From Lepisosteus oculatus (lineage: Eukaryota > Chordata > Actinopteri > Semionotiformes > Lepisosteidae), in NCBI RefSeq assembly GCF_040954835.1, contig NC_090703.1:21341444-21405443 (forward strand): a stretch of 64,000 nucleotides of DNA, written 5' to 3'. The notes beneath the pieces were generated by a model, which did no database searches, had not been told where the DNA came from, and worked only from the letters and a program-made list of their open reading frames with translations. The position numbers were made by a program, and so were the translations under genes. Numbering within the stretch: the stretch's first letter is position 1; each line of letters starts with the position of its first letter. Positions 8,431-48,308 of this stretch are shown piece after piece.

Positions 8431-9013
8431 ATAATAATAATAATTAATAATTTCTTACACTTATATAGCGCTTTTCTGGACACTCCACTCAAAGCGCTTT
8501 ACAGGTAATGGGGACTCCCCTCCACCACCACCAATGTGCAGCATCCACCTGGATGATGCGACGGCAGCCATAGTGCGCCAGAACACTCACCACGCATCAG
8601 CTATCAGTGGGGAGGAGAGCAGAGTAATGAAGCCAATTCATAGATGGGGATTATTAGGAGGCCATGATTGGTAAGGGCCAATGGGGAATTTGGCCAGAAC
8701 ACCGGGGTTACACCCCTACTCTTTTCGAGAAATGCCCTGGGATTTTTAATGACCACAGAGTAAGGACCTCGGTTTTATATCTCATCCGAAGGACGGTGCC
8801 TGTTTACAGTATAGTGTCCCCATCACTATACTGGGGCATTAAGACCCACATGGACTACAAGGTGAGCACCCCCTGCTGGCCCCACTAACACCTCTTCCAG
8901 CAACAACCTTAGTTTTTCCCAGGAGGTCTCCCATCCAGGTACTGACCAGGCTCACACCTGCTGAGCTTCAGTGGGCTGCCAGTTGTGAGTTGCAGGGTGA
9001 TATGGCTGCTGGC
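8431..9013 (-). mobile_element. 5S rRNA-derived SINE, full length or nearly so
   Basis: Read on the minus strand from 9013, the head follows 5S rRNA in order: 'ggccatatcaccctg'-like, 'gaagctcagcaggtgtgagc', 'ctggtcagtacctggatggg', 'agacctcctggga'. These include the pol III internal control region of 5S genes. The 3' end at 8431 has the 'agcgctatataagtg' stretch followed by repeated ATT, a LINE-type tail. The element is about 580 bp. The frame at 8664-8888 on the plus strand is a by-product. Confidence 0.8.
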
Positions 9014-21354: not shown

Positions 21355-21645
21355 TATATAAACATTACAGCTCAAGTGCTTTTGTATCTGAACGCTTTTA
21401 GGTAAGTAATTTAGCAGCTGCGGTATTAATAATGATTGTAATGGCAAATTCAATTGCAGGTAAAATAAAAATGGCGGATAACTTTCTTTCTAGCTTCGTG
21501 AAGCGGTCGCGCCATATTATACATATATACCATAATAGAAAACATAATATGTACAGTAGAATTTTTCACTTTAAGCTGGCATTATCCAGAACCGGGTCAG
21601 GGCCCGGACCCGGACCGTGCAGTGTGGTCCGTCGGCCTTCTTAAG
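21355..21645 (+). promoter_or_regulatory. TATA-containing promoter-like stretch (unit 1)
   Basis: A TATATAAA box at 21355-21362 is followed about 35 bases later by a strong donor-like word (TTTTAG|GTAAGTAA near 21400) and an acceptor-like TTGCAG near 21460. After these comes ATGGCGGATAAC in a short open frame that runs to a GC-rich end near 21644. These signals recur in units 2 and 3; in unit 4 the miniature LTR element interrupts the frame. No protein family is recognised, so whether a transcript starts here is unknown. Confidence 0.25.
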
Positions 21646-24819: not shown

Positions 24820-25258
24820 TGTCACGATCGTTACTCCTCCTCTAAAGGGCGCTCCAGCCCTTCCTCGTTCTGTCCCTTTCCCCACACCTGTTTCTTATTC
24901 CAGCCCCTCTTTAGTTCCACCTTTAAAGCCAGAAGCAGGCGATTGCTGCGTCTGGCTCTGTTATGGTTTTAGTTTCCTGTTCCTGATTCCCTGTCCCGCC
25001 GGTCCCGACCCGGTTCTGGTTTTTAGTTATTTTGGATGAATACCCTGGTCTTGGACTTCGCTTCCCATTTTGGATTCCCCTTTTTGGATTTCTGCTTGGA
25101 TTTTTTGCCCCGGACTCACTTCCCCTGGACACCTGCTCACCTCGGACACGTCCCCCTGTCTCCTGACCGACTCCTGCATGATATTTTTCCCTCTTGTTTC
25201 TTCACCTTTCGGATCGTGTCGTCCGCATAGACATACATGAAAGAACTGTTTCCTGACA
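24820..25258 (+). mobile_element. solo LTR (439 bp) in the zc2hc1c 3' UTR, unit 1
   Basis: It runs TGTCACGATC...TTTCCTGACA with TG/CA ends, 45 bp after the stop codon. The flanks are TCACA and TCACG, a 5-bp target duplication with one change. It is related to the solo LTR at 15578-16052. The same insertion is in all four units (32589-33027, 40358-40796, 48400-48839), so it is older than the array. Overlapping frames on both strands are by-products. Confidence 0.85.
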
Positions 25259-28700: not shown

Positions 28701-29872
28701 AGGTGCACAGTGGTCTGTGGACACCCTCCTTGCTCTGTCGTAAAACAGGAAATAAAAACCAACTGGTTTTGACTTTAATGCACTGAGACTGTGGAACTCA
28801 CAGAACTCTCTTGTCAGAAAGGCAGCTTCTAACAGCTTTTAAGTGAAGACTAAGAACACTTTTCTTTTTTTTTAAAATAGATTATATATGTTTTGTTTAA
28901 ATATATGTTATAAATGTTAAAACGACAGCTCGTATAAGCTTGTATTTTTACCTTTCGATCATTTTTAGAATTGCTTTGAGTTGCTTTTACCATGATAAAC
29001 AGTACAAAATGTGAGGTGTTGAACTTGTCAAAAGTTTTAAAGCGCTTTATGACGTAAAGTGTGATGACAGTCCTTGGCGGTCTATGTAACAATTCTTCTC
29101 GAAGTAGGTCATCGGGCCAACAGTATATAAACATTACAGCTCAAGTGCTTTTGTATTTGAACGCTTTTAGGTAAGTAATTTAGCAGCTGCGGTATTAATA
29201 ATGATTGTAATGGCAAATTCAATTGCAGGTAAAATAAAAATGGCGGATAACTTTCTTTCTAGCTTCGTGAAGCGGTCGCGCCATATTATACATATATACC
29301 ATAATAGAAAACATAATATGTACAGTAGAATTTTTCACTTTAAGCTGGCATTATCCAGAACCGGGTCAGGGCCCGGACCCGGACCGTGCAGTGTGGTCCG
29401 TCGGCCTTCTTAAGATGTTTAGGAGATGGAGGCGCCCTTGGATTTGATTAGAAACTTGCATAATTTCTTAACTTGACCCCATTATCTTAAAAAAAAAAAC
29501 GGCCAGGCCAAGACCAAAGCATGAAGGCTGCGAGGATCGGGGGACTCTCATTTTTGGTCACAGCGTAAAGTAGTAGATCAGTAACCTCTGTTTATCGTGA
29601 TAACCTTTAATTATTTTCCAGTACTTTTTCAAATGATAAAACACATTGTCTCGCCAGTTTTGCTAAAGATACGGTTTTAGTGTTTACGCGTAAATTTGTA
29701 ACCTGTAGGCTTAAATCTCGTGTTCTTATTTTCTGCATTTTCATCGTAAGGGAAGGCACTCGTTTGCGATTTACGCGCTGAACATTGTAAGCAGAGGAGC
29801 CTTAAGGCACAGCCTCGCCTTAACACCATCGTTTGCATTGTCATTGTCATCCAGAAAAGCAGTCGTAAGAAA

Positions 29873-36400: not shown

Positions 36401-37641
36401 GTGTTTTAGAACATATGTTAAAATCTTATTTACTAACTTCTAGACTTTTTACCCCCCATATCAGTCTGCAGGTGCACAGTGGTCTGTGGACACCCTCCTT
36501 GCTCTGTCGTAAAACAGGAAATAAAAACCAACTGGTTTTGACTTTAATGCACTGAGACTGTGGAACTCACAGAACTCTCTTGTCAGAAAGGCAGCTTCTA
36601 ACAGCTTTTAAGTGAAGACTAAGAACACTTTTCTTTTTTTTTAAAATAGATTATATATGTTTTGTTTAAATATATGTTATAAATGTTAAAACGACAGCTC
36701 GTATAAGCTTGTATTTTTACCTTTCGATCATTTTTAGAATTGCTTTGAGTTGCTTTTACCATGATAAACAGTACAAAATGTGAGGTGTTGAACTTGTCAA
36801 AAGTTTTAAAGCGCTTTATGACGTAAAGTGTGATGACAGTCCTTGGCGGTCTATGTAACAATTCTTCTCGAAGTAGGTCATCGGGCCAACAGTATATAAA
36901 CATTACAGCTCAAGTGCTTTTGTATTTGAACGCTTTTAGGTAAGTAATTTAGCAGCTGCGGTATTAATAATGATTGTAATGGCAAATTCAATTGCAGGTA
37001 AAATAAAAATGGCGGATAACTTTCTTTCTAGCTTCGTGAAGCGGTCGCGCCATATTATACATATATACCATAATAGAAAACATAATATGTACAGTAGAAT
37101 TTTTCACTTTAAGCTGGCATTATCCAGAACCGGGTCAGGGCCCGGACCCGGACCGTGCAGTGTGGTCCGTCGGCCTTCTTAAGATGTTTAGGAGATGGAG
37201 GCGCCCTTGGATTTGATTAGAAACTTGCATAATTTCTTAACTTGACCCCATTATCTTAAAAAAAAAAACGGCCAGGCCAAGACCAAAGCATGAAGGCTGC
37301 GAGGATCGGGGGACTCTCATTTTTGGTCACAGCGTAAAGTAGTAGATCAGTAACCTCTGTTTATCGTGATAACCTTTAATTATTTTCCAGTACTTTTTCA
37401 AATGATAAAACACATTGTCTCGCCAGTTTTGCTAAAGATACGGTTTTAGTGTTTACGCGTAAATTTGTAACCTGTAGGCTTAAATCTCGTGTTCTTATTT
37501 TCTGCATTTTCATCGTAAGGGAAGGCACTCGTTTGCGATTTACGCGCTGAACATTGTAAGCAGAGGAGCCTTAAGGCACAGCCTCGCCTTAACACCATCG
37601 TTTGCATTGTCATTGTCATCCAGAAAAGCAGTCGTAAGAAA

Positions 37642-37815
37642 ATGAATCTGTGGCGGCTCCGAACATTAAAAAAACTATATCTAGACTGCAAATACATCCC
37701 AATCTTACTATCAACACGTTTTAAGAGCCCTCTCCTTTCCACCGGTATACAAGCTAAGAGAGAAATATTGGAAATCCCATCTGAAGTAGCCCTCGTCTCA
37801 CCTTCGGAGCTGTGA
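37642..37815 (+). CDS. unidentified 57-codon open frame (unit 3)
   Basis: Same as unit 2 and still open. The protein is not recognised. Confidence 0.22.
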   Translation: MNLWRLRTLKKLYLDCKYIPILLSTRFKSPLLSTGIQAKREILEIPSEVALVSPSEL

Positions 37816-39052
37816 GCGATGGGGATCATAATTAAAAAGGGTACAGTTACTTTGAAAATGTGTATGTGATACTTAAATTTAAATAAAATAAAAGATAAAT
37901 TATATAACACAGACTGTGCTATCTACGTCCATGTGTTTAAGACGTATGAATCGGTTTTAAAACAGGCACACCCCTTCTCACAAATCCGACTGGAGTCTCA
38001 GTCCGTCGTCGCGATGAAATAGGAGCTCAGATGTAGGCTAAGTGATTGCAATTTACTTATTTAAAAGAACCACTTCAAATCAAAAGGGAGACATTTTGTA
38101 ATGGTAGTTATCATATTATACAGTAAACGTAATTGTAGATATACAGTACATAAAGGGTATGAATAGGTGTGAGCTTATAGTATATATTTATTATTTTATC
38201 TGACCCATTTGTAGAAACCGCCTACTCAGATTTAGTTAAGTGGTCTGCCACCATAAAGACAGAAAAATATAATGACATCCTGTTACATTAACTGTAAAAT
38301 AAACGCCGTAACTGCGGCCATATGAAAATTTGCATAAAGATTATACAAACATCCTAAGGAGCTCTATGACATATGAGCGTCGTAATAATGGTTGGTGACC
38401 TGACGTAACAGTGCTCCCTGAATTACGTGATCTGTATATACCCAAATACAGATATATCACATAGGGAGATGCAGTCAAACATTGCATTGCTATCGTCGTG
38501 GTGAACTATTTCTCCGCTGTTTGAGACTTGTTTGGTAAGTGTCATCAAATATGCTTGTCAATTTGTAGCGAAATCGATATACTGTATCATAATCCTTCAG
38601 CTATCTATAATGTAGTGAAATGGCTAATTAATATTGATAAATTCCCTTATTCACAGTGACTTTTGCTCAAACCCCAGTTGCATAATGGGTTAATTTTATA
38701 TCAAAAACATTCATATCATAGATATAATACAAGCTTTGAAATGAAATAGTACATTTCCAGGTTTCAGTTAAACATTTTTAAAAAAGCTCATGACTTTAAG
38801 CATTCTGAACATTGAGAATGTTATTTGGGAAACAAATGTTTATTATAATGTTTATGTTTAGGATCTGTCTCCTACTGAGTCAGCATGCAGCATTCAACAC
38901 CATTAGGTTTAATATTAAAAAGTTGTGTATTTCCTGAATTGTTTTTTTTATTCTTTTCTATTAGACCATACTAGACTGTGCAGGATATCATTTATTTGCC
39001 ATTTTTGCCTTTTCCAGATACCTGGGAAACAAAGCTCATATCTCATTTGCCA

Positions 39053-44200: not shown

Positions 44201-44941
44201 ATTTACTAACTTCTAGACTTTTTACCCCCCATATCAGTCTGCAGGTGCACAGTGGTCTGTGGACACCCTCCTTGCTCTGTCGTAAAACAGGAAATAAAAA
44301 CCAACTGTTTTTGACTTTAATGCACTGAGACTGTGGAACTCACAGAACTCTCTTGTCAGAAAGGCAGCTTCTAACAGCTTTTAAGTGAAGACTAAGAACA
44401 CTTTATTATATATGTTTTGTTTAAATATATGTTATAAATGTTAAAACGACAGCTCGTATAAGCTTGTATTTTTACCTTTCGATCATTTTTAGAATTGCTT
44501 TGAGTTGCTTTTACCATGATAAACAGTACAAAATGTGAGGTGTTGAACTTGTCAAAAGTTTTAAAGCGCTTTATGACGTAAAGTGTGATGACAGTCCTTG
44601 GCGGTCTATGTAACAATTCTTCTCGAAGTAGGTCATCGGGCCAACAGTATATAAACATTACAGCTCAAGTGCTTTTGTATCTGAACGCTTTTAGGTAAGT
44701 AATTTAGCAGCTGCGGTATTAATAATGATTTTAATGGCAAATTCAATTGCAGGTAAAATAAAAATGGCGGATAACTTTCTTTCTAGCTTCGTGAAGCGGT
44801 CACGCCATATTATACATATATAGTGTAACGCTTACGGCCGACAGGCACTGTGTAAGAGCCGGCGTACCAGAGCGGGTGACGTCACCGCCCTTCCCTGTGA
44901 TAGGAGGACTACAGCTACTGGGCTGTAGAGAGATCTCTCTT

Positions 44942-44995
44942 TACCTCACGGGGCTAGGTCGCTGCAGAGAGACGCGGAAGTCCCGGGTTCGAGCC
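44942..44995 (+). promoter_or_regulatory. tRNA-like A and B boxes in the first LTR
   Basis: TACCTCACGGG (44942-44952) resembles a pol III A box. GGTTCGAGCC (44986-44995) is a near-consensus B box, at normal tRNA spacing. A 14-bp perfect palindrome AGAGAGATCTCTCT (44927-44940) lies just before. The flanks do not pair as an acceptor stem, so it is not a tRNA gene. Confidence 0.5.
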
Positions 44996-45237
44996 ACCTA
45001 TACTTTGGGCCGACCAGATGCGGCAAGGGCGCCCGCCTGAGCCCCCGTTGTGTTACATTGGGGTCAGAAGCGGGGCGGGATAGCCCTTCGCCGGGGACGG
45101 CGATTTAAGCGGGGGAGAGTGTAACGCTTACGGCCGACAGGCACTGTGTAAGAGCCGGCGTACCAGAGCGGGTGACGTCACCACCCTTCCCTGTGATAGC
45201 AGGACTACAGCTACTGGGCTGTAGAGAGATCTCTCTT

Positions 45238-45281
45238 TAGCTCACGGGGCTAGGTCGCTGCAGAGAGACGCGGAAGTCCCG
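45238..45281 (+). promoter_or_regulatory. tRNA-like A and B boxes in the second LTR
   Basis: TAGCTCACGGG (45238-45248) fits the A box better than the first LTR does, having TAGC instead of TACC. The B box GGTTCGAGCC is at 45272-45281. Confidence 0.5.
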
Positions 45282-45591
45282 GGTTCGAGCCACCTATACT
45301 TTGGGCCGACCAGATGCGGCAAGGGCGCCCGCCTGAGCCCCCGTTGCGTTACAATACCATAATAGAAAACATAATATGTACAGTAGAATTTTTCACTTTA
45401 AGCTGGCATTATCCAGAACCGGGTCAGGGCCCAGACCCAGACCGTGCAGTGTGGTCCGTCGGCCTTCTAAAGATGTTTAGGAGATGGAGGCGCCCTTGAA
45501 AACTGCGGCCATATGAAAATTTGCATAAAGATTATACAAACATCCTAAGGAGCTCTATGACATATGAGCGTCGTAATAATGGTTGGTGACC

Positions 45592-45725: not shown

Positions 45726-47526
45726 GTAAGTGTCATCAAATATACTTGTCAATTTGTAGCGAAATCGATATACTGTATCATAATCCTTCAGCTATCTATA
45801 ATGTAGTGAAACGGCTAATTAATATTGATAAATTTCCTTATTCACAGTGACTTTTGCTCAAACCCCTGTTGCATAATGGGTTAATTTTATATAAAAAACA
45901 TTTATATCATAGATATAATACAAGCTTTGAAATGAAATAGTACATTTCCAGGTTTCAGTTAAACATTTTTAAAAAAGCTCATGACTTTAAGCATTCTGAA
46001 CATTGAGAATGTTATTTGGGAAACAAATGTTTATTATAATGTTTATGTTTCGGATCTGTCTCCTACTGAGTCAGCATGCAGCATTCAACACCATTAGGTA
46101 TAATATTAAAAAGTTGTGTATTTCCTGAATTGTTTTTTTTATTCTTTTCTATTAGACCATACTAGACTGTGCAGGATATCACTTATTTGCCATTTTTGCC
46201 TTTTCCAGATACCTGGGAAACAAAGCTCATACCTCATTTGCCAATGGAGCCCAGTCCTAAGCCTGGTGCTCTGTCCCCCTCCCCAAAGGACACAGACTCG
46301 AATTGACCCGCGCCCTTAAGGCGACAGGATCTGATCTCCACGTACTGCCCGCCTCCCAAGATACAGCTTCTGAAGGACACCTTCCAAGAGAAACTGATGC
46401 AGGAAAAGGAGAAAAAAATGATCGCCATGTACAATCGGCGGCAAGAGGCAGCTCTACAGAAGATGAGAAAATCTTTCCAATATGTCAAATACGCTGCGGA
46501 GAAGAAGACGGGGAACAGCTATCGCTTCCAAGCCCAACAGGGCCCCGAGAAGAACATTGTGGGGTATGATCGATCTTACCCCCTGAAGCCTATGGGTAAC
46601 AGGAAAGTCTCCGGCCCTGGTGAGGTTCGGGCTGTGGACCGCCCGGAAGCACAGAGTGATTCCTTGTTTGCCCCCACCCCGCCTCAGGATGGTCATGAGA
46701 GGCCCTGCGAGAGGCCGGGCAGGAGGGGCTCAAGAGTACGCAAACCTAAGGACAGGACTGTCCTCCCCATGGTGGCGACCCCTCCAGGGCAATGCCCTTC
46801 TCATGCCAATGGGAAGGAGCACTTTCAGTTGCAAGAGGAGCTACGAAAAGTGGCCGAGGCAGAGGCCGCACTGAAGGAGGAGCATCGCCGGAGGGAGGCC
46901 AGCCTGCAGGATGAGATGCGCCGGAAGGAGGCCATGATGCAGGCGAAGCTCTTCAGGAGGAGCTGAGGAAGGTTCAGAGAGAGATGGAAGACTCCAGAGA
47001 GGTGGCCGGAAGGGAAAATAGAGGACTCCTGCCCCGAAGGAAGACACTCCAGGCGAGGCAGAGCGAGCTTCGCCCCAGAGGACCGTGGGCCAACCACCGC
47101 TCTAAGGCCGTGCCTCTTCTGACCTGCAGAATGGAGAAGCAAAAAGCCTTCACTCCAAGGAAAGCCCTTCCTTTCAGAGGAGACAACCTTGATTATGATT
47201 CTCCAATGGAAGATGGCGGATGCGCAGAATCGCACTTTCCCTCTGCGCTTTCCCATCAGGAGAGACGTCAAGTGAGCCCTTGCAGCCGTGGGCTAGAAGA
47301 CGTCCCCTGTGGAAGGAGAAAGTATCTCAAGAAAGCAAGGCTCCCTGAAAGCGACGTGTCAGCGGCACAGGCCGCACAGGCCCACTTCAGAAATAACACC
47401 GCATGTCTGGATGAACAAACTCTGTCAGTGGAAAACAGATATTTGTCCCCTACAAGTCTGATGTGCCCTACCGCTGAGCAATTTCCATATGAAAATAGCC
47501 AGAGTGGAAACCCTCAGTTGGTGCCC

Positions 47527-47586
47527 TGTGAACTGTGTCACAGGAAGTTTGCTGTAGAGAGGTTGGAGAAACACAGCAAGATCTGC
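47527..47586 (+). other. zc2hc1c: first C2HC zinc finger of zc2hc1c (unit 4 only)
   Basis: CELCHRKF...EKHSKIC has the spacing C-x2-C-x11-H-x3-C. It is absent from units 1-3. Confidence 0.88.
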
Positions 47587-48248
47587 AAGAAGCTTCAGAA
47601 TTCAAAGAGGAAGGTTTTTGACTCTTTCAAGCACAGGGCCAAGGGAACAGAACTGGAGACATACATCCATAAGAAGAAGGTTAAACCGCCAATCGTGGTA
47701 AGGGCTATCCTTAAACTCTTTCCAAGCTTCCCTTGTTTTCTCCTAGAGTCAGACTCAGCTTATAAATCAATGTAAACAATAAATAAGTGTTTAATGAAGT
47801 ACTCTTCTGAAAAACTGCCACAAAGGCACATTTGCCAGACAGAATAAATGGATCTTAGTGACTTCTGAATTCTGTTGTTAAAATCTACATGAGATATCAA
47901 GCAAATAGCACTCACAGGAAACAAAACCATAACTAAATTGTACTCTCTACCAAATAACCTGAAAGGTAGCCCCAGTAAGCTAAGTTATTGCTGTATTGAT
48001 ATTTTCTTGCCTTGTTAATGGTTTGTGACCAGACTATGTACGCAGTGCTAGTCTGGAGTTTTTCTGGAAGCTGTTTTATTGGTTTCATTTCCTGTTCCCA
48101 GCTGAGAAAGAACAACTGTAGGCAGAAGCACGAGGATTTCATTCGGAGCATCAAACAGGCCAGGGAGGTGCAGCAGGTGATCACGCAAGGAGGGAAGGTT
48201 ATGAACCTGCCCCAGCCCCCCGCGAATCCAAACCCCGACTACGTGCCC

Positions 48249-48308
48249 TGCCCTCACTGCGGCCGGCGCTTTGCCCCCAGGCCGGCACAGAGGCACATCC
48301 CCAAGTGT
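48249..48308 (+). other. zc2hc1c: second C2HC zinc finger of zc2hc1c (unit 4 only)
   Basis: CPHCGRRFAP...QRHIPKC has the same C-x2-C-x11-H-x3-C spacing and is followed by a Pro/Arg-rich end. In units 1-3 only the DNA from 48298 onward survives, read in another frame. Confidence 0.88.

Follow-up and report, generated by a model that had tools for sequence, protein, structure and literature searches.

The window, that is, the whole 64,000-nt stretch analysed, contains at 17926-49258 four tandem units of ~7.77 kb each with copies of a C2HC zinc-finger-type gene, which we take to be ZC2HC1C. Because of this neighbouring zf-C2HC gene the host was taken to be a vertebrate. Unit 4 carries an element of 530 bp (44824-45353) composed of two 234-bp LTRs and a 62-bp interior. 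Its features are as follows.

44820..44823, no strand: left target-site duplication ATAG, differing from the right copy at one base
44824..45057, + strand: 5' LTR, TGTAACGC...GTGTTACA
44875..44886, + strand: palindrome GGTGACGTCACC (12 bp) with CRE-like TGACGTCA core, 5' LTR
44927..44940, + strand: palindrome AGAGAGATCTCTCT (14 bp), 5' LTR; putative RNA start and cDNA 3' end
44942..44953, + strand: box A-like TACCTCACGGGG, 5' LTR; the usual form in the family is TAGCTCACGGGG
44986..44996, + strand: box B-like GGTTCGAGCCA, 5' LTR, 44 nt from box A
45058..45119, + strand: interior, non-coding, 62 bp
45059..45076, + strand: primer-binding site TGGGGTCAGAAGCGGGGC, putatively of tRNA-Leu type
45109..45119, + strand: polypurine tract GCGGGGGAGAG
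45120..45353, + strand: 3' LTR, TGTAACGC...GCGTTACA
45171..45182, + strand: palindrome GGTGACGTCACC, 3' LTR
45223..45236, + strand: 14-bp palindrome AGAGAGATCTCTCT, 3' LTR
45238..45249, + strand: box A-like TAGCTCACGGGG, 3' LTR
45282..45292, + strand: box B-like GGTTCGAGCCA, 3' LTR
45354..45357, no strand: right target-site duplication ATAC
45389..45393, + strand: first downstream T run TTTTT, a possible pol III stop
37065..37068, no strand: empty target site ATAC in unit 3 (equivalents 29296-29299 and 21527-21530)

The 234-bp LTRs, 62-bp interior, start resembling a primer-binding site (PBS) and purine end reported in the first-pass annotation were all recovered when the coordinates were re-measured, and the 14-bp palindrome it mentioned was located in both LTRs. 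With two LTRs, a 62-bp interior, a length under about 1 kb and no proteins, the element has the features of a TRIM. Its 5' and 3' LTRs differ by 4 substitutions over 234 bp (1.7%), two of which are CpG-type transitions. The TGACGTCA core of the 12-bp palindrome (LTR 52-63) is CRE-like. Neither AATAAA nor TATAAA occurs in the element; a T4 run is absent from it as well, and from 411 of 1000 shuffles. BLAST (E 1e-3) found no further copies in the 64-kb window.

The PBS is complementary at 14 of 18 positions to a tRNA-Leu(CAA) 3' end, a value reached by none of 1000 shuffles and none of 63452 other positions. Other tRNA ends gave 13 (Leu-CAG), 12 (two Lys), 10 (Pro) and 9 (His); the primer would be a tRNA of the Leu type. 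A PBS word looked for in the literature was found in no paper. The usual form in the family is TGGTGTCAGAAGCGGGG, followed by C or T. Of 48 interiors, at least 34 have a PBS that starts with TTGGTGTCAGAAGCGGGG, the G at the fifth interior base of the window copy being atypical, and 46 have the polypurine tract (PPT) GCGGGGGAGAG.

The uninterrupted site ...CATATATACCATAATAG... is present in units 1-3, all three of which read through the target, as the first-pass annotation had noticed. The duplication around the window copy is 4 bp long with one mismatch (left ATAG, right ATAC; empty sites ATAC). The annotation had concluded that recent integration of the LTR type took place: the empty sites and the 4-bp duplication bear out the type of integration, and "recent" is not convertible to years. 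Between unit 4 and units 2 and 3 the divergence is 0.84% on the left side of the site and 2.8-2.9% on the right; together with the LTR value of 1.7%, which represents four changes only, these figures do not fix the order of unit duplication and insertion.

Several other properties of the window were recorded. To the left of the site, 3591 aligned bases of units 2 and 3 show no difference; unit 4 diverges more on the right side. A zinc-finger-coding stretch of ~877 bp (47419-48295) is kept by unit 4 and missing from units 1-3; conversely, ~1100 bp of units 1-3 (37210-38309 in unit 3) are missing from unit 4. A full-length 5S rRNA match (49 bits) lies at 8895-9013 on the - strand, at the head of a repeat that, we assume, resembles the fish SINE3.

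Copies in the genome and their target sites

A search of the 1.2-Gb assembly (813 contigs) with the element gave 54 rows, resting on 40 scored of 2345 candidates; 44 of them span positions 1-530, the window copy and overlapping tandem units included. A 30-base LTR word occurs 126 times in the genome, and its reversed control 0 times. The TRIM assignment had been made dependent on further copies in the first-pass annotation, and the genome-wide search with LTR and interior that it proposed revealed a multicopy family. Exact LTR words were not found in viral and other genome contig collections, nor did distant BLAST against plasmids and phages find anything.

The 119 fetched loci and the window copy comprise 54 complete clusters, 36 single LTRs and 8 LTR-interior-LTR-interior-LTR arrays, the rest being partial or longer; since the loci were selected for similarity to the window copy or for an exact word, the frequencies of solo, tandem and inverted forms among them are not those of the whole genome. 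Bounded insertions numbered 99, or 91 after eight rows repeating an already counted flank were dropped. The 4-bp duplication is perfect in 80 of these 91 distinct-flank insertions, has one mismatch in 9 and more in 2. A central TA is found in 79 of the 80 perfect duplications, the commonest being ATAT (42), GTAT (15) and ATAC (9). Six loci on contig C14 (L125, L126, L128-L131), many kb apart, have one common flank around a single LTR, so that a larger unit carrying the LTR would have multiplied there.

Six of the nine one-mismatch duplications, the window copy included, have ATAG on the left against ATAT, ATAC or ATAA on the right; the mirror case, with AG on the right side, was not seen among the nine. 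If sites, sides and bases were equally likely, the chance of this excess would be ~4e-7, in a test framed post hoc. The PPT ends in AG immediately before the LTR. Left duplications ending in AG could result from two 5' bases left by integrase processing and sometimes kept at gap repair; the six cases suggest that PPT-side bases may occasionally be retained at left ends.

Promoter boxes and head-to-head copies

TRIMs with tRNA-derived sequence in their LTRs were defined as Helenus by Kojima 2024 (PMC10886601). The Helenus box patterns A (TRGCY...YGG) and B (GGTTC) are both present in the 3' LTR of the window element; box A is altered in the 5' LTR. In both LTRs, 44 nt separate the word resembling box A from that resembling box B. 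No case among 2000 dinucleotide shuffles or 1080 other window stretches (234 nt, overlapping, both strands) reached the box-pair score of the 3' LTR (15). The 5' LTR, with its changed box A, scores 14, a value reached by 31 of the 2000 shuffles and 11 of the 1080 stretches. Read on the reverse strand, each LTR likewise scores 14. In a set made up of the window and the first 39 loci, TAGCTCACGGGG is found in 76 of 84 full LTRs and the spacing of 44 in 75 of 77 LTRs measured; TACCTCACGGGG is unique to the 5' LTR of the window copy among the 84. The A-box and B-box words at tRNA spacing noticed at first are thus supported.

Scans for tRNA likeness, which the first-pass annotation had proposed together with a B-box scan, gave little support for a tRNA structure. 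With Rfam, neither the element nor 11 other loci matched a tRNA, and the few non-tRNA matches in those loci (an inverted copy, a flank) were under curated scores. ARAGORN found no tRNA in the window and called one in 2 of 25 loci scanned outside it. In these two related loci only (L144 and L151), a tRNA-Arg (acg) is placed at 57-151 on the - strand, inside a Helenus-type LTR. The fold of the box stretch is not better than that of shuffles (z 0.42). A local match to a human tRNA-Val is equalled by 2-3 of 1000 shuffles. Another LTR subfamily, located beside coding copies, has CCGGG-TTCGAGC-CCCGG, which by eye resembles a complete T arm. The loose box pattern also matches repeats at 24953, 32722, 40491 and 48536. 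Descent of the element from these was rejected: an alignment with three of the four revealed little in common in the LTR box region. Judged by its boxes, the LTR promoter would be used by RNA polymerase III.

The start of the transcript could be indicated by inverted copies. Among the 119 copy loci, 16 had adjacent head-to-head LTR matches, as did 4 of the 12 partner loci (see the next section), in a scan that left out LTR matches of <46 bases and in which at least one flag (L088) rests on a weak match. A strict scan for inverted repeats with arms of >=24 nt, positioned on or beside the 14-bp palindrome, hit 8 of the 119 copy loci (L014, L060, L073, L081, L082, L092, L099, L124) and 4 of the 12 partner loci (L143, L144 and L151, which are alike, and L147). 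The centre in L082 is slightly off the palindrome, and L060 has an additional tail-to-tail join. In the 64-kb window the strict scan found no palindrome-centred inverted repeats.

The inverted spans are flanked by perfect duplications in 6 of 13 cases (L020, L073, L076, L087, L092, L139) and by a duplication with one mismatch in L061; no duplication match was found within the locus for L014, L047, L060, L082, L099 and L124. L082 and L124 continue into coding bodies, at the far ends of which a perfect duplication match is found. Only L073 and L092 among the six copies with perfect duplications pass the strict centre scan; one chimera, too, is centred on the palindrome. By eye, L020 looks palindrome-centred over a short arm, followed by a jump; in L076, L087 and L139 only one of the two arms stops at the palindrome, and in L047 and L061 neither arm stops there. 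In L092 and L124 the short arm terminates exactly at the U5 end adjoining the duplication.

Such copies could be formed if cDNA ends finishing in the palindrome annealed to themselves or to each other. A cDNA ending in the palindrome would place the RNA start near LTR 104, ~15 nt before box A, which is the usual start distance for tRNA-type pol III genes. This start would also fit transcription by pol II from the CRE-like site. The element could then be a TRIM transcribed by pol II from ~LTR 104 via the CRE-like palindrome ~45 bp upstream, its A and B boxes being relics. We consider this doubtful, though worth keeping in mind: the TGACGTCA core is perfect and a tRNA fold is absent by Rfam and the folding test, but the boxes and their spacing are kept across family copies, and the element lacks AATAAA and TATAAA, whereas the LTR of the partner has AATAAA.

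Formation of the head-to-head copies on the chromosome, by palindrome-mediated rearrangement outside reverse transcription, is unlikely. Many inverted centres do lie on a DNA palindrome, as it would predict. However, at six loci whole inverted units with two U5-type ends are enclosed by perfect 4-bp duplications, and the exact stop of the short arms of L092 and L124 beside the duplication argues in the same direction.

The presumed partner element and chimeric insertions

A partner was sought by the PBS pattern, excluding the usual Helenus interior. This gave 111 places, and the 100 of them listed are mostly of two forms, GCGGGAG and GCGGGCA. For the former, the locus L140 revealed an unrelated LTR and nothing but the PBS in common with Helenus. 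Of the latter form 13 loci were sampled, and in 10 of them Helenus LTR sequence stands directly before the PBS and a coding-type interior: the full LTR in L146, L148, L149 and L150, a part of it (from ~LTR 96-104) in L124, L143, L144, L147 and L151, and 40 bp in L152. The remaining three (L141, L142, L145) have other LTRs. L143, L144, L151 and L152 have a common upstream arrangement and were counted as about one event. This inverted Helenus-Gypsy chimera recurs on the small contigs C283, C326, C35 and C412. The outer flank is common to L143 and L152 at least, so that the insertion may have been duplicated afterwards.

The Helenus interior matches the coding interiors by BLAST over its first 17 nt, the PBS, only. 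In the C3 copy a frame of 704 aa matches RVT_1 (1.8e-36) and RNase H, and a gag-like frame of 259 aa, with a stretch resembling a zinc knuckle by eye, matched no Pfam family; the C18 copy has a terminal frame with two integrase-type matches, both under curated cut-offs. From the domain matches and the 4-bp duplication, the partner family is likely of the Ty3/Gypsy type. The 3' ends of eight coding copies were fetched (seven of the ten Helenus-LTR loci and L082). Five of them end in a 353-bp LTR unlike that of Helenus, which runs TGTAACGCC...AACGCTACA in L155 and contains AATAAA. No Helenus LTR was found in any of the eight 3' stretches, and L154, L159 and L160 have an LTR of neither kind in the stretch fetched.

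Chimeric insertions are enclosed by perfect duplications on C3 (ATAT/ATAT), C14 (GTAT/GTAT) and C1 (GTAC/GTAC); the C18 chimera has one mismatch (CTAT/ATAT), and in the C326 chimera agreement extends over the three bases visible on the left. The C3 chimera has the simplest order, Helenus LTR, coding body, partner LTR, as intermolecular plus-strand transfer at the shared PBS would give. On C18 the order is partner LTR, Helenus interior and LTR, coding body; the C14 and C1 chimeras start with inverted Helenus arms. The likely mover of Helenus copies is therefore a family of the Ty3/Gypsy type whose PBS is the same but whose LTR, of 353 bp, is different. A search for a larger partner with the same LTR ends had been proposed in the first-pass annotation: one with the same PBS was found, and the eight 3' stretches fetched contained no Helenus LTR.

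The first-pass annotation held that coding gypsy elements with the same LTRs would make the element a simple deletion derivative. At their left ends 10 of the 13 loci look so, four with the full-length LTR, yet we regard this origin as very improbable. Among the eight 3' stretches the 353-bp LTR occurs in five, neither LTR in three and that of Helenus in none; the C3 copy has a Helenus LTR on the left and the partner LTR on the right with ATAT on both sides; and by BLAST the interiors have nothing beyond the 17 nt in common.

Proposed cycle and comparison with known systems

The anatomy, the target duplications, the common PBS, the chimeras within single duplications and the inverted insertions bounded by duplications are established from the sequence. 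In our reading, to which we assign a probability of about 0.7, the element belongs to a multicopy TRIM family of the Helenus type, transcribed by pol III and mobilised in trans by a Ty3/Gypsy-type element. RNA polymerase III would initiate at the 14-bp palindrome, which lies ~15 nt before box A, and the transcript would extend across the interior (62 bp) and the 3' LTR. The RNA would be copied in trans by the Ty3/Gypsy-type element using the same tRNA-Leu-type primer site, and the integrase of the partner would insert the DNA at NTAN sites with a 4-bp duplication. Chimeras would come from intermolecular strand transfer at the PBS, and inverted copies from annealing of palindromic cDNA ends.

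Several observations weigh against this reading: Rfam without a tRNA in the element and 11 loci, ARAGORN calls in just 2 of 25 and the fold z of 0.42; a perfect CRE-like palindrome that could serve pol II equally; three of eight chimeras without either LTR in the stretch fetched; the strict palindrome centre in just two of six perfectly duplicated inverted copies; and the gag-like frame without a Pfam match, with integrase-type matches below cut-offs. That the boxes are chance matches in the GC-rich LTR of a plain TRIM is scarcely credible, for although the 5' LTR score was equalled in shuffles and reverse strands score alike, the 3' LTR score was unmatched in shuffles and window stretches, the boxes are kept across the family, the other LTR subfamily has the T-arm-like sequence and ARAGORN calls tRNA-Arg in two related loci.

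We give even odds to the broader proposal that the genome preserves a fossil record of trans-mobilisation of a pol III-type TRIM, in which RNA starting at the palindrome, 15 nt before box A, gave a self-complementary cDNA 3' end that led to inverted homodimers and to heterodimers with cDNA of the Gypsy helper, integrated by the helper at TA-centred sites. If it is true, a helper can be recognised by joint products rather than by resemblance. Chimeras within single duplications point directly to the helper and suggest that one integrase takes two different LTRs. The inverted copies would be a genomic readout of the RNA start and bear on the pol III origin of tRNA-type TRIM transcripts.

The first-pass annotation regarded a vertebrate TRIM with a tRNA-type promoter as a new combination. 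This was wrong: vertebrate Helenus families are described from coelacanth, sterlet, paddlefish and Ostariophysi (PMC10886601), the only article found in a literature search for Helenus, TRIM and retrotransposon. As outlined there, animal Helenus elements have 4-bp duplications and an apparent dependence on Gypsy, deduced from PBS similarity. Among the defining features, the boxes, PBS, PPT, 4-bp duplication (80 of 91) and TRIM size are present in our family; for tRNA structure ARAGORN gave 2 of 25 and Rfam 0. Similar to Helenus are the short TRIM form, tRNA-like boxes A and B in the LTRs, the PPT, the duplication, a PBS to a tRNA 3' end (tRNA-Leu is among those of vertebrate Helenus), tandem arrays, solo LTRs and a Gypsy partner suspected from the PBS. 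Partner chimeras, inverted insertions and the TA target seen here are not described for Helenus in the accessible text of that source. Membership is judged here by these described features.

Cassandra, the plant 5S TRIM (as cited in PMC10886601), likewise has a pol III-type promoter inside its LTRs. The boxes of the window element are of the tRNA type, in contrast to 5S, and a relationship was rejected: Rfam gave no match, 5S included, at E up to 10 in 44700-45450.

In the literature searched, as far as its accessible text goes, we found no earlier description of direct chimeras with the presumed helper and of inverted insertions, which are new to us. The nearest cases differ in defined ways. 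In Triticeae, template-switched complex LTR insertions have been reported (PMC1950507), in which, as here, two LTR elements are fused in reverse transcription and inserted as one; unlike the cases outlined there, the present ones combine a miniature with a presumed coding partner, have different LTRs and include inverted forms. In HIV-1, a foldable 3' end of minus strong-stop cDNA primes itself and produces aberrant DNA (PMC4668388); that report, in the part available, concerns cDNA during reverse transcription, whereas here integrated genomic copies with target duplications are observed. The element itself is ordinary in kind, already described as Helenus, and its interest lies in the chimeras and the inverted copies.
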